From NCBI RefSeq assembly GCF_949628265.1, contig NC_088789.1, positions 17,290,886 to 17,354,885 of the forward strand: a stretch of DNA of 64,000 bases, read 5' to 3'. The notes beneath the pieces are model-generated. The model worked only from the letters and a program-made list of their open reading frames with translations. It did no database searches and was not told the DNA's origin. How positions within the stretch are numbered: the first letter of the stretch is position 1; the number at the start of each line of letters is the position of its first letter. Below are positions 5,033-64,000 of this stretch, in pieces. The translations under genes and the position numbers were made by a program. The DNA comes from Cloeon dipterum. Taxonomy: Eukaryota; Arthropoda; Insecta; Ephemeroptera; Baetidae.

Positions 5033-8000
5033 ATGGCAGCAAGTAGTAGCGGTGTCGAGTGGACCTCGATTATCAAACCAATATTAGCCGCATCATACGG
5101 CTCGCTCAGCAAATTAGACGTTGCGAATTTCGTCAAAGGAATTATAAGAAGGTGAGAAATAATTCGCAACATTCTCAGCGCTTCTAGGGAACGAATTTTG
5201 CTTCGCTAAGATACGCCCTCCCGGATGGAACTTTTAAACTGAGTTCTGGGCCTTTCTTTGCGTTGCATGACTACCCAGTTTTATGAATTTGTCAAGATAG
5301 TACAAAATTTTCAAAGGTTACTCGCGGTATTATGTTCATATACATATGTAACTTGGAAACTTATGCAATTACTCTCGGAAATTCTGCGAGTCTAGAAACA
5401 CACACTAGTTCCGCAATTGTCATCAACTGTCGCAATCGGTCCGCTTGATTTCTGCTTGGACCGAAAAGCGGCTAGACTTATGTATATTTTCACAATAATT
5501 TTGGCAGGGTACTTGAGAATATGCCCTAATTACTACTAAGTACATACCATTGCTTTGTTCCATTAAGCTTTGTACATAATGTTAAACTACATTGTATGTA
5601 TGTAGTACGTAGTTAAGTTGTTCTTTTCAAAAATAAAATCACTTTATCTTGGAATGATTGGAACGTTCACAGTGAATCAGATTTTGAGAAACGGGATGTG
5701 GAATTCGAACCATTCTTCACTGCATTCAGCATTTTGGCTGCAGAATATCTCAGTTCAGGAGCAGATTGCTGTAAGTTATTCATAAGAGATATACGATTAT
5801 GTACTTTAAATAATTTTTTGTCTCTTCCAGTGGAAAAGAGTCAAGTGTCTTGCGTTAGTCATGCCTCGAAGGTTCTCCTGCGCTTTTTGGTCGAACGACT
5901 CAGCCGATCTGAAGCTGACGACAGCCAACTGGCCCGCCTGCTCCTGCTCGCTGTGCAAGGCTTGTGCCAGGGCAAAAGCACCCTGCAGGTGGCGGATCGG
6001 CTGGCTTTGACTGCGGACATGAAAGTGGCTCGTTTGCCTGGTCCCTCAAAAACTGCCAGCCAAGAAAAAGAAGCCGAGCCGCTGAAACGCCCGCGGTCCG
6101 ACTTAACAGCTGCCATCCTTGAGCAGCTGACCACCCCATTGAGTCCACTGAATGTAGCTGACTCGCCTGAGGCTGCCAAGGAAGCAGCCGAGACTGAGGC
6201 TCATGGACAATTTGTACGACGAAATGTGGCAAGTCTGAAAGCTTTGAACGCCTCTGACAGGATTTTAGATGTTTGCCTCGGTCTCAAGAGCCTGAAACTG
6301 TATCTCTCTGGGTAAGTTATGATTTGAAATTAAAGGAAAAATCATGTTTGCTAGTTTTGTATTAAACAAGTAAATAAGTTTTGTTTATCTTGTTTCCTAC
6401 ATTACATCAAATGTGACAAATAAAATGTGATGAAATTTAGCATGTAAGCTTATAAGGAAACTGGAAACACAGGGATTTGATGTTTCAGTATTTGGTGAAA
6501 GGAATGAAATTGATTAGGATCTAATGCGTTAAAAGATTTCGCAAGTGACAAGTCGATTTGAAAGTTGAAAGAGATTTAAATTTCAAGTTGTCTGAAGGTT
6601 ATAAATACTTGGGGATTGGGGATATATAACATGTGAAATGATTCAAAATCGGATTTTGAAGCCAATTTTCATTCAATCGTGAAGATATTTTAAAGATAGA
6701 CTATATTTGACAAGACAAATCGACTGGAAGGTAATTCTTAATTTCCAGATATTTTAATCATTTATATGAAATTAGCAAATAGCTCGTTAGCTCGTTAATG
6801 ATTCAAGGTTAAAAAATCTATACCAGGAAATGTTTAAAAATTTATGTCAACTCTTTTTTCACTTTCAATTAATGATTTTTTTCGGAAAGATAAAGTCTTA
6901 GAACATTTTTTTTTGTCAAAATGCAAGATATAAGAAATTGCATTATCTTTTAGAATATGGTAAGTTTTTTTCTCTATGATAAACCACAAAAAACTTACAA
7001 ATCCTGGAAAACCCCTTGTAGGTTTTTATTTTTGGAACGTCCAAAGTAACCCATTGATCGACTTGTCTCATTGAATTATGTCTTTAAATTAAAGTTCTGC
7101 TTAATTTAGGTAACACTGTATTATATCGTTGTTTATTGTTCATACGTATTTTTTAAACAGTTGAGCTATTTTCAAATATTTAAAAAGAATTTCACTGGAA
7201 CATTCAATCCTTCCATAGTTTCCTTGTTACTTGAAGAAATTAGAGATAAATAAAAGAGTAATCGATTGTTTTTCTTGAAGAGATGAGAAGTCATCAACAA
7301 CCGCAGACGCTCTCCACGTGAAACAGCAAGCAGCCACCCTTCTGGCGGAAGTGTCTCTGGTTCACACTGCGTTGGGCCTGCCCATTCTGGAACCCTTAAA
7401 TGCAGACAAACTTGAGAAGCTAGCGATAATCAGCCTTGGATGCTTGCAAGCGGCAGTGGCATGTGCCTCGTCGGCTGTCTTGCTCAACGCCAACCAAGCC
7501 ACCGTGAAAAACAAGGAAGAAGAGCTTGATGCTGCCATGGTCGGAGTGGTCGAAAAGTCGATCGAAGTTGCGGACATGGTGGCCGCTGCCCTGACAGCGT
7601 CGAAGCACGTTGAAAAAGGCACACTGTTAAATGTGGAGACCACCTGGGCGGTGACCCTAGTTCAGGGTCTCTGGCAGCAGGTGTCTGCCACCTACGAACA
7701 CAGACAGCAGGAGAAAGGCAAGTCACCGAGCCGCGCCGTGTCAGGTCGAGTGAATCTGCAGAAAGTGCAGCAGGGCTTCAGTGTGCTCTCTGTGGCCCTG
7801 GCAGGACAGGCTCTCAAGCTCTGCACGCACATCTTAACCGATCTCGACGAAGATGACAAGGAATGCACAGATATTCCCACTATCGCTCCTGAAAATCTTA
7901 GCACAAAGTATTCAGCCGCAGAACGTGTTGCTTACCTACTGAACGCAGCACCTCTGCTCCAGCTGTTGCATTACCTTGCGATTATATCGTATAGAAAGGC

Positions 8001-26000: not shown

Positions 26001-29000
26001 GAGATCAAAACCTTTGCTGCAAGTGCTGCTGAAACTGTTCCTCTTGTGCACAAAGGTGTGTGTTTGTCCTCGTTATTGTATGGATGAAATTCTACTTCAT
26101 AATAATTTCAGGTGAGAAGCAACCAGGAATTGCTAGCTACGCCTTCGGTCGGAGCAATCGAAGCATTCTTGGCCACCGCTGAGAAATGTTTGACCGCTGG
26201 AAAAGCTGTTGAGCCGCGAACGACTGAGCAAATCTTGAACATTATGGAGACCATTCTTACCTTGGCTGCGACCAAACCACTGGACCACTTCCTGCAGCTC
26301 ACCAGATCTGCTAAAGGCGCTGAGCACGTCAAGGACCTCCTGCAGTTTGCGTCTGGAGAGGTTTGTGTCAAGCATACATATATTTATCCGACAATTCCAC
26401 CTTTTGCCATTTTAGGTCAGTCCCCAGCTCTTGCAACACCTGGCAAAGGTGGCCGGCGCCCTGAGCTACGGTGACCCAGGCCGCATGGCTGTCCTGACCA
26501 ACTACCTTGCGCCAGCCCTTGATTTTGAGAAGTATGACCTCTCTCGCTTGCCGGACGAAGAGCAGAAGATGGAGTTCCTCTGCCTGCTGGCGTCCGGAAT
26601 GGACCACAATGCAGCCGGCAGCACCCTGAAGGACCACCTCAACCAGCTAGGTGTTGTGCGCAAGGCCGTCGATTACATCGCAGCGCATGCGCCACCTGCC
26701 TCGCCGCTGATGCTGGTGCCTGGCACCGACGCCTGGAAGGATTTCATCTCGAGACCAGCCCTCAAGGCCATTCTCAGGGTACTTGCTGGATTGGCTACAG
26801 AACATGAGCCAACTCAGGTATGTATTTTATATTTTATCTTAATACTCGGCCAAATTTACGCCTGATATCAGTCGTTACTAGTAGACTGCAATAAAATGAT
26901 ATCGACAAAGTATTTATTTTACGGAACATTTTGTTGAGTTTGCTTGACCACATGCTTAAAACATTTTGTAATTGTAGCTGGAAGTCTCAACACCAGAGTG
27001 CATCGCTGTTTTGCACAGACTGGAGCAAGTTTCATCGGAGGAGAGAGTCGGATCGCTCTCTGAGAACCTGCTGGAAGCGCTGGGCACCAATGAGGCTGTG
27101 AAGGAGAGGATCGAAAAGGTGAATATCAGACGAAGCGATCCATTAGAATATTTCTAACCTTTGAACACTAGGTGCGTCATCACACCAGAGCAGAAAAGAA
27201 GAGACTGGCTATGGCGATGAGGGAGAAACAGCTGGGAGCCCTGGGCATGCACACAAACGAGAAAGGGCAGGTCACAGCCAGCAGCTCCCTTCTCTCTCAG
27301 ATGGATGAGTTGGGTGAGGAAACTGGCTTGGTCTGCGTCATCTGCCGTGAAGGCTATCGGTATATATTGTAAAACTGAAAACTAAGGCAAATTTTATCGT
27401 CTTGATTATATAGGTGCCAGCCGAGCAAGGTTCTGGGCATTTACACGTACACGAAACGGTGTGCGCTGGAAGAGGAGGAGCGGAAGCAGCGCCGTTCCCT
27501 GGGCTACTCAACCGTCAGCCACTTTAATGTTGTGCACATTGACTGCCACATGGCCGCCGTGCGTCAAGCGCGCACCAGGGACGAATGGGAGTCTGCCGCC
27601 CTGCAGAACGCCAACACCAGGTGTAACGGACTGCTTCCTTTGTGGGGTCCTGTCGTGCCAGAGTCCGCTTTCGCCAGCTGCCTCGCCAGACACAACACTT
27701 ACCTGCAGGTAGTTAAAATTTGAATTTCTGACCAAATCTTGAGTTATACGATTTTTACGCATAGTGCTAGTTAACGGTTTGCAATTGAAAATTTGTTATA
27801 AAAAATCGTCTCTGCCAAAATAAAACTTTTAAGATTTTATGATTTAATTCGTTCAATCTTCAGGAATGCACTGGCCACCGCGACATCTCCTACTCGAGCA
27901 CTGTGCACGACTTGAAGCTGCTACTGCTGAAATTCGCCTATGAACGCTCCTTCAACGAAGACACTGGCGGCGGCGGACCTGAGTCCAACATGCACCTGCT
28001 GCCGTATCTGGTGCACATGGCCCTCTATGTCCTGAACACGTAATTTAATCCAATTGAAGAGAAGTAATAGTCTAAATTTCAATTTGTTTGTGTACAGAAC
28101 AAGATCCGCGTCGCGGGAGGAAAAGTCCCTCTCTGCATTCCTGGCCGCCAGCCAAGACACCTGGGTGGTTAACTCATTCGTGCCAGACGGGCCTTTGTAC
28201 TGGTGTGTCATGTCAGTGCTCCTAAGGTCATTCAAAAAGTAAGTCTTTTTGGGCTGATTGCACAAGACACATGCAATTTTGTTTTAGTACCAACCTGGGT
28301 TTTTGATATTTTTGTTTACGATGTTTTGGATGTTTTCTGAGCGCTCTGATAGCTTCCAAAGGGTAAAATTGTGCATAATCTGAAAGCTCTCATTTTGGCT
28401 GTTCCAACGGTGTAGAGATATTGCAGATCAAACCAATTCAGGTTTCGGTCAGGTGTTGGTAAAGTGGCTATATATGCAAATAGAATGATAACGATCGTTT
28501 GAGGGCTGCTATGACGCCAGGATTTGATTTCTTACCTTTCCTGAAGGTCTTATCTTAACTCAGGAGTGCCCCAAGGATTTTTTGAAACTAAAAATCAGCC
28601 ATTTGATTTTTTCACTTTTCGCCTGGCCTCAAAGAATCAGGATGGTGCTCTAGCAATATTTGAAAATTATATATCACTTGTGGAAGCTCTTCTCTTATTA
28701 ATTTTTCTTGTAGATGGGAACAGGAGGACGGAGTGGCCCATCTTAAGCGGCTGTTGATTTTGGCGCAGACGAGGCACGTGGAAAAGTCAAACACCCAGCA
28801 GGTGAAGGCGACGAAGCTATCAGACTCGTCAGTAAAGGAGTATGCTGTTTACAAACCCTATCTTTTGTACTACGCACTGGTGGACGGCCTCTACAAGTAC
28901 TGCTTTAAGGTAAATAGCTATTTTTTTTAAAGACCTCCCTTGATAATGATAAATCAAAACAGAAGGTTACATGCGGCAGCGAGGAGCAGTGGCCCAATGC

Positions 29001-39983: not shown

Positions 39984-42288
39984 TTAATACTCCAAGTTCC
40001 TGAAGTTTGCGGTCACTTCTCTAATCCAGTCTGAGTAGCCCGCGACATTGACGTAGACGCCAGGTAGTCCAGGCGTCGCGCACCCGATGCCCCAGGCCAC
40101 CAAACCGGCCACGTAGAATTGGCCCTGAGTCGTGGTGCTCTCGCAAACTAAAGGAGAACCGCCGTCACCCTGTCCAATTTCAATTTATTAGATATTCCTT
40201 GCATTTTAACAAGGGAAGCGCACCAATTGACCCAAAAATTTAAATGTTTAGTTTCTACCAGGGGAAAGTCTTAAAAAATGTCCAAATTCGGAGTTTTAAG
40301 CGGTCAGTGAGTCTCGCGCTGTTGGAAATTGATCTATTTCACGCAACAGAGTAATTATTCTAATTGACTGGCGGTGGTATACGTTTAACTGTTGGCCAAA
40401 CAGAACTCACGTGTCCTCCGCCGCGCGAAAAAAGATCTATTTTCGACAGCGCATAAAAATAGCAAGAAAATTATGTATTTTTTTGTCAATTCCCTTGAAT
40501 TGTAGGGCAGACGAAGCAAATTTGGAACTCCAAACGAATTCTCACCGTGCAAGCGTCCTTCTGAGGCTCTCCACCGGCGCAGAGGAAACTCTGCCTGTCC
40601 AGCTGGAAATACTGGCTCAGTTTAGTATCGCGAAGTCTTGTTTCGCACTCTGCAGGGTCGATCACTGGCACATCGACGTGTTTCATCACCTCCTGTAACT
40701 TGCCCATCGGTTCAAACGCGTCTTTGCCCCAGCCAGAAACCCAGCACCTGCAATCACCGTTCCAAGAATTATGTTTTCAATTTGGATTTCCTTTGTACCT
40801 TTGTCCGACAAAATTGGAAGTTGCAGCCGGCAAGCAAGCCGATCCGATGTGTGGATTCTGCCTGAGTTGAACAACTTCTTCCATGGTTAGGATGGCGACG
40901 TCTCCTTTCAGGTTTTTGGCGTTGAATTCTGGGTGGACGATGATGTCCGTCACGTTGCGGTCTACCGGCCGATATGGCTCTCTGTGGTTCCTCGCGTCCC
41001 ACTCTCCCAAACGCACTTTAATTCTCTCTGGATTTGAACTGCTGAAAAAATTTTATGCTGAATTCACTGCTTTTACAGTTTTTTATCACTATAATATACT
41101 TGTCGACTGTGTAGATTTTATGCGCAGCGGTCAAAACGTGCACGTTGTTGAGGAGAACTCCTCCGCCGAGATAGACATTCGTCTCAGCGTCCAGCAAAGC
41201 CACTACCCACGGATAGTAGCCATATGGGGCCTGCAAATTTTTTTATTATAATTAAATCTATAGCTATATTCATTAAAAGAAGTACCTGTCCAGGTTGGGG
41301 GGCCTCATCAGCAGGCAGGGTAATGCTACTCGGCCTGAAGCCACACGTCAACGCAGAATGTTTCGGAGGTTTTGGTTTCGAGCAGCAGAGAACAAAGTTT
41401 TTTTCTGTGCAGTTGCTCTCAGGGGTGACAATTCTGGTACCCACCAGCGGACACTGATCGATTCGTATGCAGTTGCAGTTCTTGTTTCCTTCATTTCCTG
41501 TTATTCATTGAATAGTATTTAAAAATTGGAAATCTTTCGTAAGTTAAATTATTGAATTTACTGTTACTCTACTTCCATAAAGGCGCAAAAACAGAATGGT
41601 TGGCTCAAAATTTGTAAACCCAAAACTCTGAAAAATGATCCGATTTTGAGAAGCCAAAAAACGTTTTTGATGGAATCAGCTCGTCGTCAAGACAAGTCCT
41701 AAAACTAAAACGGACTTTAATTCTTCTCGTTACGTCATTTTCATTGTAAGTGTGGAGCAGCTAAACCTCGAATGTCGATAATACTTTGGCTAAGCAGTCC
41801 AAAAATGACATTGTTTTTTTAATTAGATAATTTTGCTGAGATGCACTGGAAAATTTTGATTATTTCAGGAAAGGTTTTCAAAGAACCAATCTTTTCCTTA
41901 CACTTTTCCTGGAAAAATATTGTGGTCGTTGAGTTGGGAGCTGCATTAATTTTTACTTTTTTGCTCAACCAAACTTCCAGCTTCTGGGGGTATTTTTTCA
42001 GTTTTAATTAATTAACTTTTTACCAAGCCTGTCAGCAGTTTGTTTTTGCCTGTCCAAAAAAGGCTGCTGCGGAGTTGAAGGTCTGCCTGTAGTCGTACTT
42101 TCCTGGCTTTGCGAGGACGTCGATGAAACGTCACTGCTGGCTTGAGTTGTTGCCGACGTTGTCGTGCTGCGCACCTCGAAAATGTGTTCGTCCTTATTTT
42201 GAAAAACTATTTGCTGATTGCTTCTGGCATCCTCGAGTGCAGCGCAATTGCAAGCAAAAACAATCACAAGCGCAAAAATAAATCTCAT
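39984..42288 (-). CDS. CLIP-domain serine protease homologue, secreted, catalytic serine replaced by glycine
   Basis: Exons: 42024-42288, 41286-41497, 41100-41230, 40799-41041, 40546-40747, 39984-40169. They give 412 residues. A signal peptide ([20 protein letters not shown]) precedes a Ser/Thr-rich linker to about residue 75. A CLIP-like domain follows with six cysteines (96, 98, 103, 117, 125, 126). The trypsin-fold domain keeps the histidine (TAAH, His196) and the aspartate (GDVAIL, Asp250), but the active site reads GDGGSPLVC instead of GDSGGPLVC, so Gly354 replaces the catalytic serine. It also has LGEWD, usual in this class. This is the pattern of the CLIPA group and PPAF-II-like cofactors, secreted haemolymph proteins that assist prophenoloxidase activation without being proteases. 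Which pathway it serves here is inference. The polyadenylation signal overlaps the stop codon. All six exons join in phase. Confidence 0.93.
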
Positions 42289-43168
42289 ACTGGCGGAGAA
42301 AAACGTTCAGTCTCTCGCACTCACGACCTGATACTGAGAAAAAAGCTGCCAAACCACTTCTCGCCAAGGGCAAACACAGGTGATTAAATCAAATCCGTCG
42401 GCGCCGCGGGAATAATAACAATGGTGTCGGAATAAAAGCAAGCACACTTGTGTCCTGAGTTTATCCATTTTATTTACAATGCTCGTCCATGTGATAACAC
42501 AGAGTTAACTAATTCAGCGCAGCTCTCACTCCTATTTCTTTTCAACCTACATTTTAATAGTCAGCTGATATGCAGAGTAATACACTTTGGGAAAAAGAAT
42601 AAGCGTGGCAAGGACAGTAAAACATTTTCTGACTTTTCTTCCTGGGCGAAGAAAGGCCAAATAAAATTAAGTAAAGAGTTAACAACAGTTTTATACAACA
42701 TGCAAGAAATTGATTGTTTTTCTTACAAAAGTATGAACATATATAAGTAGTATTTTTTGTTCAAACTGCACTGGCAATGTAACCTTTTTTTAAAACGCAA
42801 TAAAGATTGAATTTGAAACAAAACAAACAATTAAATCAACGGTGGTGCCATCTGTTACCGGCTCTAAACACCAAACCAATTATTTTCAGCGATATAAAAT
42901 TACATGAGTGTCCATAAAAAATATTAGAAAGATTTTTAATTATCGAGTGCAGGGAAAAGGACAGAGTTGCCACAGAGCCAAGAATAAATGCAACAGCTAA
43001 TTATCGCACACGTCAGGACCACATCCATTCAAATCGATTGAGGTACGTGCAAAAAAATGGTATTTTAAAATTTTCCTTCCTCTTACGACAAGCAAACAAA
43101 CAAATGACAAGATCAACTTCAGCTAAGCTCCGAGCTAGTGGCTGCTTTTCTTTATATAATTTTTATTT
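42289..43168. other. Spacer between the protease homologue and the BTB-HMG gene
   Basis: Both flanking genes are on the minus strand, so this 880-base AT-rich stretch should hold the promoter of the protease homologue and the 3' end of the BTB-HMG transcript. Plus-strand open frames at 42142-42750 have no family features. Nothing further was recognised. Confidence 0.4.
43162..43167 (-). terminator. Polyadenylation signal of the BTB-HMG gene
   Basis: AATAAA on the minus strand, just after the TAG at 43169-43171. Confidence 0.45.
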
Positions 43169-45742
43169 CTAGGATAATGGCACTTGCGAGGCGTCGTCCA
43201 TGTCGTCAGCGTCATCGTCAGTGACAGGCATGAGGACGCGGACGAGCTGGGTGGCCTCGAAGCAGGGCTTCTTCTTGGTCAACTTCTTCCTGAGCAGCGC
43301 CTCGCGCGCCTCCTTGGGGCTGTAGTAGTAGCCCGGGTACTTCTTCTTGTGCTCCATGTCAGCTGCCTTGGCCGCGTTGTAGTAAGCCTGCTTCTCGTTT
43401 GAGTCCATGCTCTTCCACAGCACGCCCAGTCGGATGCTGATGGCCTTGTTGCTGTCACTCGGGTTCTCCGCCGCCAGCTTGCGCCGCCACTCGTTCGCGA
43501 AGATCATGAACGCGTTCGGTGGCCGCCGGATCTTCTCCGCGTCCTCACCCCCTCCGCACACCTCTGCCCCCCGAACTTTCTTCCCCTTCAGCGTCGTCAC
43601 TCCTGCAACTGGTTCGAGTATGATTAGAACACCCCACCATCGGCCAATTTTCATTTCTTGTTTACCTTTGTTCGGCCGGAACGTGGTTGTCGTTATCGTC
43701 GTCACATTGTCGTCCACTACAGGCTGAAACAAAACCATAGATCAGGCAACGTGAAACTCATATAAGGAAAATTTGATAAGTTTTATGAAACAATAAATTT
43801 GATTTTTAGAACGACTCTAGGAATTGCTTCACTCTTTTTTAATCATTGATTAATTCATACATTTAACATAAGGCAAGAGCAATAGAGTGAAAGATTTGTT
43901 TCCGTCTCGCATACTAGGTTTTAGGAGTAGCGACAAAAGCGGAGAAAGTGCGCTGTTTGTCTCTGTCGCTGCGAGTAGAGGGGGACGAGAGCATGTTCTT
44001 TCGTCCAATAGCTCCCCCTCCACTGCCCGCTTGGCTCGCAAACAGCACCACAACAGGCGGGGAATCCCTACTTTCCCACGATTAATCATTAAAAACTAAC
44101 AAAGCTCATATACAACCCTTATGGAAAATTATTAATTTTTTCTGGAACGTCAATAATTACCCACGAATTGCTTTGTCTCATTGGACAGTGTTTAAAAACC
44201 AACTGAGAATTATGGCCACAAGAAACAATAACTATGCAAATTCAAACAAGCCACTTTATTCCCTGCGCAAACAATTGAACGTGTCTTAAAATTGAGCGAG
44301 CCTGTAATAGGAAGCAAACATATCAGCCTATTGTTCTTCCTAAAAAAAAATAATTAATGACTCATTTTATAGGTCACACCAAAGCATTGTTTGCTCAACA
44401 TTCAGATTGTTTGAAAGAGTAAATTAGATATTTTGCCAAAAAATACGTTTAATGTGACGGATTCCCCAAATTCATCGGGGTTTCCATCTACTTTTACGCT
44501 TCAAGGTTAAAAATTAAATTAATTTTTTTTCTTTTTAAATGGCCAGACCAAAACCTTATCGTGTCAGTCAGTGCCTCTGTTAGTAGTTTAAATATATCAT
44601 GTGGCGAATTTGCGAAAGAAATCAAAATAATTACTTTAAAAGCCCCAATTGACACAAATTTGTGACTTCAAATCAAATCAAATTTAACTAAAACGAAGTA
44701 GTGAAAATTCATACCAAGTCAATAACCACGCGAGGATCTTCTTCTTTTACATCTGGTGAGCTAGCGTCTATGTCTGTTATGTCTGGCGGCTCTACTTTAA
44801 TCTAAAAACACACACTGTGATATTTGAAATTTATGGCGATTGAGGAAAACGCACCAAGGAAGCCAACTCGGAGTCGCCTTTGTCCGTGGACGATGAGTCT
44901 CCGAGCTGCACTCGCACGATATGAGCGACTTTTCTCGCCTTCTTGCCTGCCGCGTTGCAAGTCTCCTCCGCACTGTCTTCGTTTGCCGACGACTCGAGCC
45001 GCTCGTTCGCCTCGCTCTCTCCTAGCATTGGCAGCTCACTGTTACTCTGACATAAAATTAATATTAATTTAGAAGCCCAGGAGTTTTGATTTATTCACCT
45101 CATGCTCACTCTTGCACAATTTACTCTTTGGTTCACTGTCCAAGTCGGCCGTGGTTGGCCTCTTGACTACGATTTTGGACCGAATATTGCACAGCCCTTT
45201 GACCTGCAGCGTCTCAGCCAGCAGCAGGAAGCTATCCAACTCGCTCTCAAGCACCCTGATTTCCCCTTTGTACATGAACTCGAGCAGTGACTTGACGTGG
45301 TTGCTGTTCATGTGGTTCAAAATCACGATTGGGTGCGGTGTGTTGTGGTTGTTGAAAATGTCCTGTACAATAAAATATAATAATTAAAACACGGAAATTG
45401 CGTTTTAATATTCAAATTCAATATTTTTTATGACCTGGTCAGGCAAAATTAATTTAACGTTTAATCGATGTAAATTTTTTGAAGCATTTCGCTGAATTTG
45501 AATTTACACAATCGAAAATATTTTAATTCAATTTGGTTATTAAAAAATTTAACCTGAAAGTAGGGACTGCAGGCAGAGAGGACCATTCGATGCGCCCTGA
45601 AGTGTCTTCCCTGACAGGAAAGGGTGACATCGATGAGGTTCTGCTGTTTGAACTGCTCGATGAACACGTCCAGCATAGTGCTGCTGTGGTTGTTCCAGCG
45701 CAGGTGCAGCTGCTGCTCCCCGCATTCCTCTGAGTTCAACAT
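43169..45742 (-). CDS. Predicted BTB (TTK-type) plus HMG-box fusion protein
   Basis: Six exons: 45554-45742, 45099-45362, 44855-45046, 44715-44801, 43666-43723, 43169-43602. All join in phase to 407 residues. Residues 9-120 are a TTK-type BTB domain (HLRWNNHSSTMLDVFIEQFK, then VTLSCQGRHFRAHRMVLSAC and HPIVILNHM), a dimerisation fold of insect transcription factors. A Ser/Glu-rich linker holds two SUMO-type sites, IKVE (216-219) and VKEE (233-236). Residues 289-360 are an HMG box (RRPPNAFMIFANEWRRKLAA, then SIRLGVLWKSMD and YPGYYYSPKEA), closest by eye to the SOX/MATA sequence-specific class. The tail is acidic. The protein is probably a nuclear DNA-binding regulator; its target is unknown. 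Exon 4 to exon 5 crosses a 1-kb intron and is the weak link: ATG GTT TTG TTT CAG at 43738 could also start a separate HMG protein. The 63-base intron 5 is in-frame if retained. Confidence 0.75.
44125..44200. repeat. Repeat family E fragment in the BTB-HMG intron 4
   Basis: TTTTTCTGGAACGTCAATAA through GCTTTGTCTCATTGGACAG is a diverged match to 7028-7075 in UBR4 intron 3. Confidence 0.4.
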
Positions 45743-47142
45743 GCTGCCGAATACAACAGAAAACTTCAATAAAAAATGAAAATCCGAATCATATGTGTGG
45801 TACATCGGTCTCCGGCTAACGAAGTAAAGAGTAAAGTATTCATCGCCGTTTCCCTGGTGATTGCATCGATTTTATGCCTCTTTTAGAGTTACACAATTAT
45901 TATTGTGGATTTCGATTTTTTTTTTTAATTTTGCACAACTTGGCGGGAATATGATTGCGGCATGAGAGTCCCGCAATGCATACACAATAGGAAAAATGTG
46001 TCATTTCCCGTTATCCCTCTACAAGGGACGGGTGGTTGTGTTTAAAACCCCATCACTGCGGCCACGGATACAACAATGGAAACCTTGAGGGCAATAATGC
46101 ACTACCTGTTCTGCTGGTGATCCACGGCGCTCGAGTTAACTTTCGGCCCGTCCGAGCAGACCGGATGAAAGTTTCGGACACCAAGTTTCTGGCGTCGAAG
46201 AAACGTGGCTTTATTCGCCTTAAATAGTTAAAAAATCGTCTTTGTTAAGCGATAACAATGCGTTCTGACAAATGACGACTGATTGCAGAGACATCTAACG
46301 GCCAGACGGACGATTTGACGATTAGCAAACAAGGAACACCCTTGAAGGAGACTCGAGAAAGGACTAAAATTATTCATTTATTTGAACAAGAAGTATGAAG
46401 AACGTGAATTTAAGTCACAGAAGTTGTTGCGTGCATAAATACATACAAATCTTAGACAAATAAAGGTGACTGTCTTATTGTCAGTTTATTTTTTCTACCT
46501 TCAACACAGCTGATGTTTGCACTGCAAGACGGAGGTATGAGGATTGGAATAGCCGCCATTTGCAAAATTTAATTTCTCCGCAAAGCCAATTATTTTCGTA
46601 CGTTCATTCCTCAATTTGAACATGGCGTTTTATTGTATCCCTTTCATTGGAGACAGCAGAGACAGGGAGGGTTTAAGAGGGGAATATCTTACTGTTTGTC
46701 TGCGTTTAAACACAACACAGTAGAGTAGTAGTCTGGAGTGAGACTGCGGCCGCAACTAACAGGTTAAATACATACAATAATATAATCAGTTCGCAACTCA
46801 TGTACGCGGCAACCGCGAGTGCAACGGAGAAGACGGTCGCTGTATAATAATTTTAATTGGAAAATTTACTCGCGCCATCAACGAAAATGACAGAGTGAAG
46901 GATTAAATCGCTGCGGCGATTGCCAGCGTCTTCTCCTCTCTCTGAGGTAAATCAAGAAGTGTCAAAATATCATATTTTTTGACAAAGGAGCCCATTCATT
47001 GACTGCAGTTGGCAGTTTGGCGGGCGGAAATCTTTTATTTGTTTGCTCACTGTTAAATTTATGTCTCGACTTGATCTATGTTGAAGAAGGAAAGCAGGAG
47101 GTTGGCTTTTGTTCCTGTCCAGCGACACGCACACACGCAGCA
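45743..47142. promoter_or_regulatory. Divergent spacer between the BTB-HMG gene and the SLC45 gene
   Basis: This 1.4-kb stretch between head-to-head genes should hold both promoters. An acceptor-like TTCTGTTGTATTCGGCAG directly precedes the BTB-HMG ATG, so its 5' leader is probably spliced from an exon in this stretch. No additional gene was recognised. Confidence 0.4.
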
Positions 47143-50100
47143 ATGACCGAGTTCAGCACCCTGCGGCTGGTGTTTATCAACGCGATGGTGTGCGGCCTGG
47201 AGGTCGCCGCCACTGTGGCATTCACCTACCTGCCTCCGATTTTGCTCAAGGCCGGCTTCGCTGAATCCTCGATGGGGATCATTCTCGGAGTCGGTACAGA
47301 TACACGATGCCAGATGATAATTTATCTTTATTAATTATGCGCCTGTCAGGCCCTTTGATCGGAATGTTCACCGTTTCCGCTGTCGGCCAGCTGTCCGATT
47401 ATTGGTATGAAAAGTTCGGGCAGCGAATTTTCTTCATGCTCGGACTAGCTTTTATTTTGTCGCTGTCATTGCTGGCTGTAATTTTTGGACATCGACTCTC
47501 CTCCTCTGCCGACGGACTTGCTGTAGGGTGAGTGGGGTTTTCTTTTTAAATAATAACGCATCAAAGAAGGCATTGTCAATTATTCAATTTTATTTTTTAT
47601 GGTGCTTAAAAATGATTACAAGAGTGATTAATTTGATAAACATCAGCATCGATCGTTATGTGACAGAGACATACCTGGTTTTTCCTCCTTCTTAAAATTG
47701 GAATATCCCCGATTAGAAGGATTTACTTGTTACCAGTTTGATATACAATATTATAAAATACAGACAGCATTAGCTGACGCGCTGAGATTAAACGATTAAA
47801 TGCATTACATATGTATAAGTACATAATGTCTGAAACAAACATTATAATCGCGCGTTGATTATTGTTGCTACAGGTGCTATCAGCCTACACTCACGTCGAT
47901 TTAAATATATTTACACCCTTTGCAAGGGCATGCAACACCGTGTCTATGGTGTTCTAAACTGCTTAAATATGAGTTTATTATTTAAAAAATAAAAATGTAC
48001 AATATACAGGATGGTCCAAAATCCATCGACCGAGCTCTGGGATAAAAAAAACTATAATTTCAAATTTGGTTGTGAAGGCGGAACAGTTGCCCAATTAGGG
48101 TGGTCTGGCTCCGGTCCTTTGTTGCCCCGATACAAAGTGAAATTCTAAGGTGTGATAGGGAACATGCAGGCAGACTTTTCCGCTGCAAGAAGTCGAGATT
48201 TTGCAGCATTTAAACATGGTTTCTTGAGATTTGTTCTGCGGAATCTGAATCTGGTGGTATTATTTAAATTTTAAATTAGGGGATTTTTTATTTTAAAAAT
48301 CAGGGTTGCTTAACTTTGGGTCTCCCAACTTTTCTGGAAAAAGTTATACATCACATGGAATTCGGGCGAAGTTTTTCGGCCAAGCCAGCGGTGATGTGCA
48401 ATAATCTGAAAATTTGATTTTTCTTAAATACTGGAGACCGGAGCACTTTGACCGAAAGCCTTATTATGTCGATGAGGGACAAATGGAACCAATCTTTTCG
48501 GAAAAACTTGAAAATCTGTGAGCGGGTATTAAACGACGTGCTGATTAGATTTTTGAAAATCCGACAAATATTGTTGATTTTCTCAAAAGGTTCGAGTTTG
48601 GCACGAGCTCAGCACCGACGGGCTGGAGAGCAAACCCCAGCGCAGTTCCTGAAAGATGATAAATTTACCGCTTTACTCTCGTGTTTTAAAATTTCCAGCA
48701 CTTACCATTAATTTTCGGGAAAATAATTTTAAAGGTATTAGCATCAATTTTGTGGCATTTAATTTTTTTTCTTAATTTTTTCCAAGTTAGCCAAAGTAAA
48801 AAATTGTTCTTGTAAGCATTTCCTGAAGAAATCAAAATATTCGCGCCAGCGATTTTCCTAGTGCACTTCAGCAAAAGTCTTATAAACGAAATCACTTACT
48901 TAAAAACAAAATATAACATTTTTGGAGAAATCCTGACAAGCTGATTCGTAAAATGTTTTTTTTAAATCGTATCATTTTTCACAAAGTTTTGTTAATTTTA
49001 ATTTATTAATTACAAATTATTTATATTTTTTTAAATTTTAGTGTTTGAAGTTGTGGCTGTCTAATAATTGAATCGAATTGCAGATGCGCTTTATTGGCGC
49101 TGGGCGGCGTGGTGCTGGACTACTCGTCGCAGGTGGCACTGAACCCTTGCGAGTCGCTGCTGTGTGACCTGCTGCAGGGCAGCGCCAGTTCGGAGCGCGG
49201 CTTCTCCATATATTCTGGGGTGCTGAGTCTGGGCGCGTGCATCGGCTACCTGTTGACGGCCGTGCACTGGCCGTGGGGCCGGCAGGAGGAGGCGGCCTGC
49301 GGCGCCGCGCTCGTCTTCTTCCTGCTGTGCTGCGCGGCCACCATGTCGGCCGTGTCCACGCTCGCCACCGCCAAGGGGACACGCAAACGCCACCTCAGCT
49401 GGACCAAGATCGAGTTTCCCTGCAAGTACAAAAGCGTGCCCCACCTCCTCACCACCAAGATCACCGCCGCCTTTGTCTTCCTTTATCAGAGGGTATATAA
49501 AAAAATTAATTAATCTAAAGGACGTGGATGTTGGAAAAATATTATTTGATGAATGAAAAGCTAGAATAGTGTAAATTTAGAGTGGCGTTGGAATGTAATG
49601 TTTATTTTTTACAAAAGCATCCTTTTATTTTCTTTTTATTTAATTTTTGATGATAGTGCAAAATAAAAAAAATACTACTGCAAAATTTTGTTAGGAATTT
49701 TCAGCAGCTTTCAAAATAAGGATTAATTTGACTCAATTAAACATTGTCTATGATCCAAATTTCAACAAAATATGAGTTTTTTTAAATCAATTTTTGCCAT
49801 TTTATTAAATTCCCCCAAATTGTTGAAATCGTTTAATCGAAAATTTTCCCCCTATTGATACCATTAAGGCCTCAATAAAAATTTTAAGTAATTAAAAAAT
49901 TGAAAAAAACGTCACTGGAATTTCTTTTTTCATATTGCGCGTTTTTTTAAATAGGTTCTTATTTAGACAGGGTTAAAATTGATGTTTCAGGTGTTGCTGC
50001 TTCCAGTGTCGGTGTGCCGCGAGGTGTGGCAGTCGCCATTGGTGCTGTGGCGGTTGTTCGTGGCGGACACGATCTCTTGGGCCGCGGCGACGAGCCACGC

Positions 50101-51038
50101 GTTGTTTTACGCGCATTACGTGGGCCAGGTGGTGTACGCGGGGCAACCAAACGCGCCGGCCAACTCGCTGGAGGAGGACCTGTACAACGAAGGCGTGCGC
50201 ATGGGCTCGTGGGGTCTGCTGCTTCACAGCATGGCCTCGTGCGGCTACGTGCTGCTGCTGCAGAACCAGCTGATTCAGGCTTACGGACTCAAGACGACCT
50301 ACCGCTTTGGACTGGCCAGCTTCGCCGCCTGCATGTTTGCCACCCTCGTCGTGCACAACGTCTGGCTGCTCAACATCTTCGCCGCCTTCTCTGGCATCGG
50401 TTTCGCTGTCATGACCAGCATCCCCAGCGCCCTCGTCACTGAATACCACGCCGACCAACAGGTTCGTCTATGAGCTATTTGTTTTTTCTTAAAAAAAAAC
50501 TCGCACATCGACCAAAATTGAAAGTATTTTTTTACAAGAGTTGAATTTCATGAAGTTAAAGATATAACAAGTTTTGGGTCTTTTTATGTCTATTCCGCTC
50601 AAAATTAATATTAAATATCTCAAACTGATAGCGAATAATTATATAATTATAAAGGAAAAATTAATAATTTAAATTTTCATTGATTTTGTTATGTCATGAA
50701 ATAAATATTCTTTGCTTTGGCAAGACTATCACGGACCGTTTCGAAAAGATTTTTCATACAAGATGTTATGTGTGCAGACGTTCTACTTTGACCTGCCTGA
50801 GGACGAGAAGCGCGGCTGCGGCGCCGACTTTGGAGTGCTGTATGTGGGCTACTACCTGGGCCAGACGGTGATTTCGCTGGTGATGAGCTCAGTTGTGCAG
50901 GCAATGGGCATGCCGCACGGCTACATCGCGTTCGCCGCGCTCGCCAGTCTGCTCGCCTACCACCAGGCTAACAAGGTGGTCTACTCGCACACCGACATCC
51001 CCCACCTGAGGGCCAGCTATGACCTCACCAAGTGCTGA
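47143..51038 (+). CDS. SLC45-family membrane transporter (sucrose-transporter-like MFS)
   Basis: Exons: 47143-47293, 47350-47527, 49084-49492, 49991-50461, 50778-51038. They join in phase to 489 residues. The ATG at 47143 starts MTEFSTLRLVFINAMVCGLE, which runs into the first membrane segment. The motif VGQLSDYWYEKFGQRIFFML corresponds to the GxxSDxxxxxxGRR loop of SLC45 and plant sucrose carriers; the usual paired arginines are reduced to GQR here. Hydrophobic segments fit about 12 transmembrane helices, with a basic central loop (TAKGTRKRHLSW). The family includes proton-coupled sugar transporters, melanosomal SLC45A2 and Drosophila LOVIT, a vesicular carrier in photoreceptors. Substrate cannot be read from the sequence. 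Exons 3-5 are strongly GC-rich against very AT-rich introns. AATAAA at 51046-51051 lies just after the stop. The family call is fairly sure; subfamily is open. Confidence 0.83.
48000..48700. other. Non-coding repeat-like sequence in SLC45 intron 2
   Basis: The 1.56-kb intron contains TACAGGATGGTCCAAAATCC near 48006, the kind of sequence often seen at the ends of insect transposable elements. No transposase or reverse transcriptase frame follows, and no matching second end was found. It is at most a remnant. Confidence 0.25.
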
Positions 51039-63322: not shown

Positions 63323-63527
63323 TCAAACGTTCGCCACGGCCTGCAGCAGCTCCTCGTAGATTTTAATACCTTGCAAGAATACTTTCTCGTTCAAGAACTC
63401 ATCGTGGTCGTGCAGCAACACTGGCGTGTTGATGATCGGCGAGAAGCCCAGCGCAGGAATGCCCACTTCACGCACGTAACGACTGTCAGTGCCGCCAGGG
63501 AAAATCGCTGGCTTCAGTTTCAATTTG
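63323..63527 (-). CDS. Acy1: Aminoacylase-1, C-terminal exon (continues off the right edge)
   Basis: This is the last coding exon, 205 bases, with acceptor TATTATTTCAG on the minus strand; its first base completes a split codon. The peptide contains [20 protein letters not shown], then [20 protein letters not shown], and ends [11 protein letters not shown]. This is the conserved C-terminus of the M20 metallopeptidase aminoacylase-1, which hydrolyses N-acyl amino acids such as N-acetyl-methionine in the cytosol. The TDSRY segment and the HDHDE segment belong to the M20 catalytic domain; the histidine in HDHDE corresponds to a conserved family position, and the remaining metal ligands lie in exons outside the window. 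No lesion is seen. The intron upstream carries a family A repeat. Upstream exons should follow to the right of the window. Confidence 0.92.
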
Positions 63528-63654
63528 CTGAAATAATACACAAAGAGTGTAAATACTTTTACAGCTAAAGTCACGATTTTTTTTGCGTGGAAATTTTTGG
63601 ATTCATCAACCATTTTAGGGATTTAGAGAATATATCGAAGAAACTGACCGCGTA

Positions 63655-64000
63655 CCGAAATTCGGTACTTTAGCGGTTTTTGGTTTGAACTTAGCCGGCG
63701 ATCATCTAGAGCTAGGATTGGCCACATCTAGATGGTCGAGCCACAGTGACAGCCACCGGAAATGAGTAATGCGACATAGCCACAGCAGCTTGACTTTATT
63801 CGCTAATGCTGGCTGTCGCTGTGGCGCTGCTGTCTCAGTCTAAGACCAGCCCTACGTCCTATCAGAGAACCACTCACTTCTATGATAGGTTACAGGATAG
63901 GTCCAAACCTAAACCAGCCGAAGTGTAATGGTTTTTAATTCCTCCCTATTTTTGGCATGTCTTGTCAAATTTTTGACCGAGTGATTCAACTCTAGCCATA
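63655..64000. repeat. MITE-like family A copy in the aminoacylase-1 intron, cut by the window end
   Basis: It contains TTTGGTTTGAACTTAGCCGG, GCTGTGGCGCTGCTGTCTCA, TAGGTCCAAACCTAAACCAG and TTTTTGACCGAGTGATTCAA. These correspond in order to blocks of the copy at 25507-25911. Its right end lies beyond base 64000. Confidence 0.65.

Follow-up and report, generated by a model that had tools for sequence, protein, structure and literature searches.

The locus described here raises the question of whether a BTB domain and an HMG box, which lie close to each other on the minus strand of a Cloeon dipterum contig, are parts of one protein or belong to two neighbouring genes. In the window, i.e. the whole stretch of 64,000 nucleotides that was analyzed, an initial annotation had placed a six-exon BTB-HMG gene of 407 residues at 45742-43169 (minus strand), and the exon table bears this out: the six exons of the candidate locus are bounded by GT/AG sites and together make up 407 codons followed by a stop, and the intron phases (0, 0, 0, 0 and 1) are mutually consistent. 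The distance of 1.4 kb that had been given for the two domains corresponds approximately to the interval between the end of exon 2 and the start of exon 5; the domains themselves are about 1.65 kb apart.

In detail, exon 1 (45554..45742; coding score 22.0, donor 4.77) contains the start codon, a near-TTK motif and the beginning of the BTB domain. Exon 2 (45099..45362; coding score 26.0, acceptor 7.39, donor 4.88) completes the domain, at about 45174, and opens the linker, whose acidic and serine-rich part in exon 3 (44855..45046; coding score 25.2, acceptor 5.60, donor 3.58) includes the basic stretch KKARK. Exon 4 (44715..44801, 87 nt) is symmetric with phase 0-0 and has a weak coding score of 4.1, a weak acceptor (0.12) and a donor of 3.82. 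It is followed by intron 4 (43724..44714, 991 nt), the decisive junction for a fusion. Exon 5 (43666..43723, 58 nt; acceptor 3.31, donor 5.57) is uninformative, its coding score being 1.1 in frame and 0.7 in the next frame. Exon 6 (43169..43602) comprises the HMG box, a basic tail, an acidic C-terminus and the stop codon, directly 3' of which an AATAAA signal starts at 43167. The in-frame coding score is strong in exons 1, 2, 3 and 6, the last of which reaches 69.3. Intron 5 (43603-43665, 63 nt) has a good donor (5.57) and a good acceptor (5.39) and contains an in-frame ATG at 43654 and no in-frame stop; on its retention the HMG frame would stay open, with this ATG as a possible start.

The BTB domain was recognized by Pfam at residues 28-126 (E 7.7e-27, 94.1 bits against a gathering score of 20.5), corresponding to about 45661-45554 and 45362-45174 as derived from the exon table. 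TTK-type BTB domains, which are specific to Arthropoda with few exceptions in plants, are marked by an N-terminal FxLRWN motif (PMC11426971). The sequence found here is LHLRWN, in which the first F is replaced by L while the other residues fit. The BTB domain assigned at first is right, and it is a candidate for the TTK type, one letter off the motif. The protein had also been expected to be dimeric, which is probably too small, since hexamers are described as the assembly state of TTK-type BTB domains (PMC11426971). Neither a second BTB domain nor a second HMG box was found in the window when the gene's own domains were used as phmmer queries. A pattern scan for C2H2 and FLYWCH motifs gave three matches in the window, at 49983-50270 and 47411-47692 on the plus strand and at 27146-27208 on the minus strand, and none in the gene.

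The HMG box at residues 289-356 (about 43528-43325 as derived from the exon table) is equally clear (Pfam E 7.1e-18, 65.3 bits against a gathering score of 25.4). A comparison with NCBIfam gave no family. Among solved structures, the best sequence match was a tandem SRY/HMGB1 construct with E 5.8e-24 over two boxes, the SRY box giving 54.6 bits; SOX2 followed (E 1.6e-16) and then other SOX boxes, HBP1, HMGB1, capicua and LEF1. When the HMG exon was modelled by AlphaFold2 from its sequence alone, the box showed three helices, with a moderate mean pLDDT of 65.4 overall and block means of 71-89 over residues 21-80. Foldseek placed SOX2 (E 5.4e-05) and HBP1 (5.7e-05) at the top of the matches to this model, with TM-scores of 0.54 to 0.71.

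The likeness to SOX proteins implied by the earlier label "SOX/MATA class" thus stands both by sequence (SRY and SOX2) and by fold (SOX2 and HBP1), but the SOX signature is absent, as RPMNAFMVW is replaced by RPPNAFMIF. Members of the SOX family have an HMG-box identity to SRY of about 46-50% or more, while the box described here shares 29 of 79 residues with SRY and 33 of 85 with SOX2. Membership in the SOX family was rejected on both counts, signature and identity; RPMNAFMVW is the defining motif in surveys of insect and mite SOX genes (PMC2386450, PMC7738191). At the aligned DNA-reading positions the residues are nevertheless SOX-like: the N of RPxNAF, the F-M pair and the N before the second helix are the same as in SOX2. 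These residues have DNA-reading roles in HMG boxes. In the first helix, HMGB boxes have S rather than the N of sequence-specific boxes. An identity as a non-specific, two-box HMGB protein was also rejected, since only one box was found in the window and RPPNAF carries N where box B of HMGB1 has S. The box looks like a SOX-type, sequence-specific-type HMG box which is yet no member of the SOX family by the signature test.

Between the two domains lies the acidic linker with its basic stretch, and both of its SUMO-type motifs, IKVE and VKEE, are situated within exon 4; as many motifs occurred in 230 of 5000 shuffled linkers, which makes them weak support. Exon 4 was skipped by the gene finder, and its removal does not shift the frame. 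Considering its symmetry and weak acceptor, it is a candidate cassette exon, i.e. a putative alternatively spliced switch.

The surroundings of the locus provided the material by which the join could be judged. A UBR4 gene occupies about 22 kb on the plus strand (5831-28043) with 37 predicted exons, the first of which (10 nt, 5033-5042) is doubtful. It is followed by a dynamin-1-like (Drp1) gene on the minus strand (33.5-29.6 kb) and, on the plus strand, by a gene with a weak Myb-type match (34.7-38.8 kb), which we take to be cramped. Only these three regions, with 18,789 coding bases and 57 introns, served to train the gene finder, and the BTB-HMG locus was left out. Many introns of these training genes are only 49-64 nt long. 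Directly downstream of the HMG exon lies a trypsin-like gene on the minus strand (39984-42288; Pfam E 2.9e-44) with a Thr/Ser-rich N-terminal region. Active serine proteases read GDSGGPL. As this gene reads GDGGSPL instead, its product is probably an inactive homologue of serine proteases. On the plus strand, MFS, OATP and SSF transporters are predicted between 47 and 64 kb, and predicted exons with a peptidase M20 match (63323-63727, minus strand; Pfam E 3e-06) are found near the window end.

Over 46900-42350, the free best parse joined the BTB and HMG parts with exon 4 skipped and reached a score of 124.99, and the six-exon path including exon 4 reached 121.62. Forcing a split between the BTB and HMG parts cost 9.8 log units, or 3.3 when gene starts and ends were made cheap. 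For comparison, the split cost was obtained for 18 introns of the training genes, all of which were more costly to split (15.1 to 26.9) than the BTB-HMG join: the 14 from UBR4, each 240 nt or longer, gave 15.3 to 26.9 (8.8 to 20.4 with cheap starts), and the four from the Drp1 and cramped-like genes 15.1 to 19.1 (8.6 to 12.6). A different picture was obtained with ten introns outside the training set, which are themselves gene-finder predictions (two from the trypsin-like gene, BTB intron 1, three from MFS, one from OATP and three from SLC5 genes): their split costs were 2.7, 8.6, 9.5, 9.8, 10.4, 10.5, 12.2, 17.2, 17.4 and 23.9, four of the ten being not above 9.8. With cheap starts these introns ranged from 2.1 to 21.8, and the 3.3 of the join was lower than eight of them, equal to one and higher than one. 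Not included in the controls were the intron that leads from the doubtful first UBR4 exon (5033-5042) to 5831, those shorter than 240 nt (BTB intron 1 being the one exception), and a number of longer ones in the Drp1, OATP and SLC5 models.

Gene boundaries were split at costs of 9.9 (HMG to trypsin), 2.4 (MFS to OATP) and 0.0 (OATP to SLC5), or 3.4, 0.0 and 0.0 with cheap starts. The BTB-HMG join is therefore matched by a false one, between the HMG exon and the adjacent protease gene, for which an in-frame connection can also be found: 9.8 against 9.9, and 3.3 against 3.4 with cheap starts. When the protease gene was in range, the free parse even merged BTB, HMG and protease into one model, indicating that the gene finder joins too readily. 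Agreement of phase was also discarded as a proof of the join: at the junction of exons 4 and 5 it arises by chance in about one third of cases, which amounts to a factor of about three, and the false protease join is equally favoured. The fusion first proposed is plausible, its splice sites being canonical and its phases consistent, but the evidence from the gene finder is ambiguous: the cost of the join falls both within the range of the introns outside the training set and at the level of the worst false join.

One explanation that has to be weighed against a fusion is that of two adjacent genes on the same strand, a BTB-only gene whose end lies in intron 4 or close to it, and a gene for a small protein with an HMG box, which would be transcribed from intron 4 and translated from 43738 (MVLFQP...) or, on retention of intron 5, from 43654 (MKIGRW...). 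We regard this arrangement as rather unlikely. It gains from the split cost of only 9.8, which is no more than that of the known gene boundary next door, and from the frame 43741-43169, which meets no stop even across intron 5 with its 63 nt. In this frame the ATG at 43654 has G at -3 and, if intron 5 is kept, would give a whole HMG-box protein. Proteins consisting of a BTB domain only do exist, such as Batman in flies (PMC11426971), and 8 to 22 "BTB only" genes were counted in each of five insects (PMC4033408). Intron 4 furthermore contains a block of 120 nt with 60% GC (43948-44067). Of the 35 introns that are 120 nt or longer, seven have a block of at least 50% and none a richer one than this. 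The intron also contains an AATAAA at 44260 and ATTAAA at 44453 and 43843; the GC block and the AATAAA could act as promoter and end signal, respectively. The sequence of the block suggests that it might be an internal promoter or a regulatory element. Regarded as a repeat, it found no convincing counterpart in the window. An origin from an RNA family was rejected, the sole match in 42300-47000 being MIR2119 at 42617-42708, outside the gene and with 29.4 bits against a gathering score of 73. However, a crude promoter scan of intron 4 yielded one initiator (44206) and one TATAAAA (44371) at a distance that does not match, and no DPE.

The possible starts also speak against a separate HMG gene. 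With splicing at the 43723 acceptor and removal of intron 5, no in-frame ATG occurs ahead of the HMG box, the first one being inside it, and the coding sequence must therefore come from upstream. The best split parses start at the ATG at 43738 and propose no new first exon in intron 4, but this ATG is in poor context, with T at -3 and seven upstream ATGs between 43994 and 43761, the last of which opens an overlapping frame, and its first codons coincide with the fair acceptor scoring 3.31, which ranks in the top tenth of all AG sites. A start at 43654 in turn means that an intron with a good donor and a good acceptor has to be kept, and the corresponding split parse scores lower (113.3 versus 115.2).

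A single locus of the lola or mod(mdg4) kind, whose transcripts have alternative ends and either stop after the BTB domain and linker or reach the HMG exons, seems improbable as the main arrangement. It would fit the isoforms differing in the DNA-binding part that are frequent among TTK-type BTB genes (PMC11426971), and reading through past exon 4 yields ...VVIDLV and an immediate stop. The frame is also preserved when exon 4 is skipped; on the other hand, the pattern scan found no C2H2-like or FLYWCH-like motifs at the locus. An artefact of annotation or assembly in this single genome, by which the HMG box would be a misplaced or decayed copy, is very improbable, as the frame of the HMG exon is intact and its coding score is the highest of the six exons, of which it is also the longest. 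One gene is favoured, since without intron retention the HMG exons offer no good start codon by themselves, and since a long linker follows the BTB domain. We consider it reasonably probable that the BTB domain and the HMG box form one gene with the simple fusion as its main product, and with somewhat more confidence that they form one gene when alternative ends are included.

If the two parts are joined, their sequences suggest that the combination of a TTK-type BTB domain with an HMG box may represent a type of gene-control protein that has not yet been described. The initial annotation had known of no BTB-HMG regulator, in agreement with our literature searches, which yielded no such protein among the matches listed, and with the available portions of two surveys. 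The BTB subfamilies listed in PMC4033408 include BTB-ZF (C2H2 and FLYWCH) and BTB-HTH and none with HMG, and the term "HMG" is absent from its main text. This survey counts 56 BTB genes in silkworm, 44 in fruit fly, 46 in honey bee, 55 in flour beetle and 53 in monarch, and its row "Others" (0, 0, 1, 4 and 1, respectively) could hide BTB-HMG proteins. In PMC11426971 the partners of BTB domains are C2H2, HTH/Psq and FLYWCH, and "HMG" is likewise absent from the main text; the accessible part of PMC8234988 names no BTB-HMG protein either. No relatives by DNA or protein were found in prokaryote and viral contig collections, which says little for an arthropod gene. Automatic annotations of other insects may contain proteins with BTB plus HMG box.

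The candidate shares with TTK-type factors such as tramtrack, lola, bric-a-brac and GAF the BTB domain with its near-TTK motif and, if the join is real, the linker and the C-terminal position of the DNA-binding domain. It differs from them in the L instead of F as first residue of the motif and in the HMG box, where those factors carry C2H2, HTH/Psq or FLYWCH domains (PMC11426971). Single-box factors of the SOX/SRY kind are its best matches in sequence and fold and share with it the SOX2-like DNA-reading residues, but have RPMNAFMVW in place of RPPNAFMIF, and here the box is apparently joined to a BTB domain. The Anopheles protein SOA (Myb, BTB and C2H2) is comparable in that a BTB domain is joined to a DNA-binding domain other than a zinc finger, the binding of which is strengthened; in SOA, however, the Myb domain is located in the N-terminal part, before the BTB domain, and no HMG box is named in the available account (PMC10620080). 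Batman would be the counterpart of the BTB half if two genes were present, but it is described as consisting of the BTB domain only (PMC11426971), whereas a long linker follows here.

As to its function, the one gene would encode an arthropod protein in which an acidic linker carrying a pair of SUMO-type sites connects a TTK-type BTB domain to one HMG box of the sequence-specific type. The BTB domain might cluster several copies, so that HMG boxes of weak affinity would bind groups of sites strongly and bend the DNA. In SOA, the addition of the BTB domain raised the DNA binding of the Myb domain from a Kd of 59 uM to 40 nM without sequence specificity (PMC10620080), and a BTB domain can therefore strengthen the binding of another domain. 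The BTB face and the SUMO-type sites of the linker could recruit partners, and repression or chromatin organisation would be our best guess as to the outcome; repression and chromatin architecture are among the roles of TTK-type factors (PMC11426971). Inclusion or skipping of exon 4 would then lead to forms with or without the SUMO-type sites.

We tentatively suggest, with somewhat less confidence than the fusion itself, that this protein represents a conserved class of arthropod regulators which has so far escaped description; its members would combine a hexamer-forming BTB domain of the TTK type with a SOX-like, non-SOX HMG box and could bend DNA at several sites at once. The honeybee SOX survey, in which RPMNAFMVW is required of every box (PMC2386450), could miss such a class, and so could the BTB survey, which files unusual partners under "Others" (PMC4033408).

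Many developmental regulators of arthropods combine a TTK-type BTB domain with varied DNA-binding domains. If the fusion is true, the partners named in the papers cited here, C2H2, FLYWCH, HTH/Psq and Myb, would be joined by one that acts in the minor groove and bends DNA, and it would become testable whether clustering by a BTB domain makes an architectural factor out of a weak bender.
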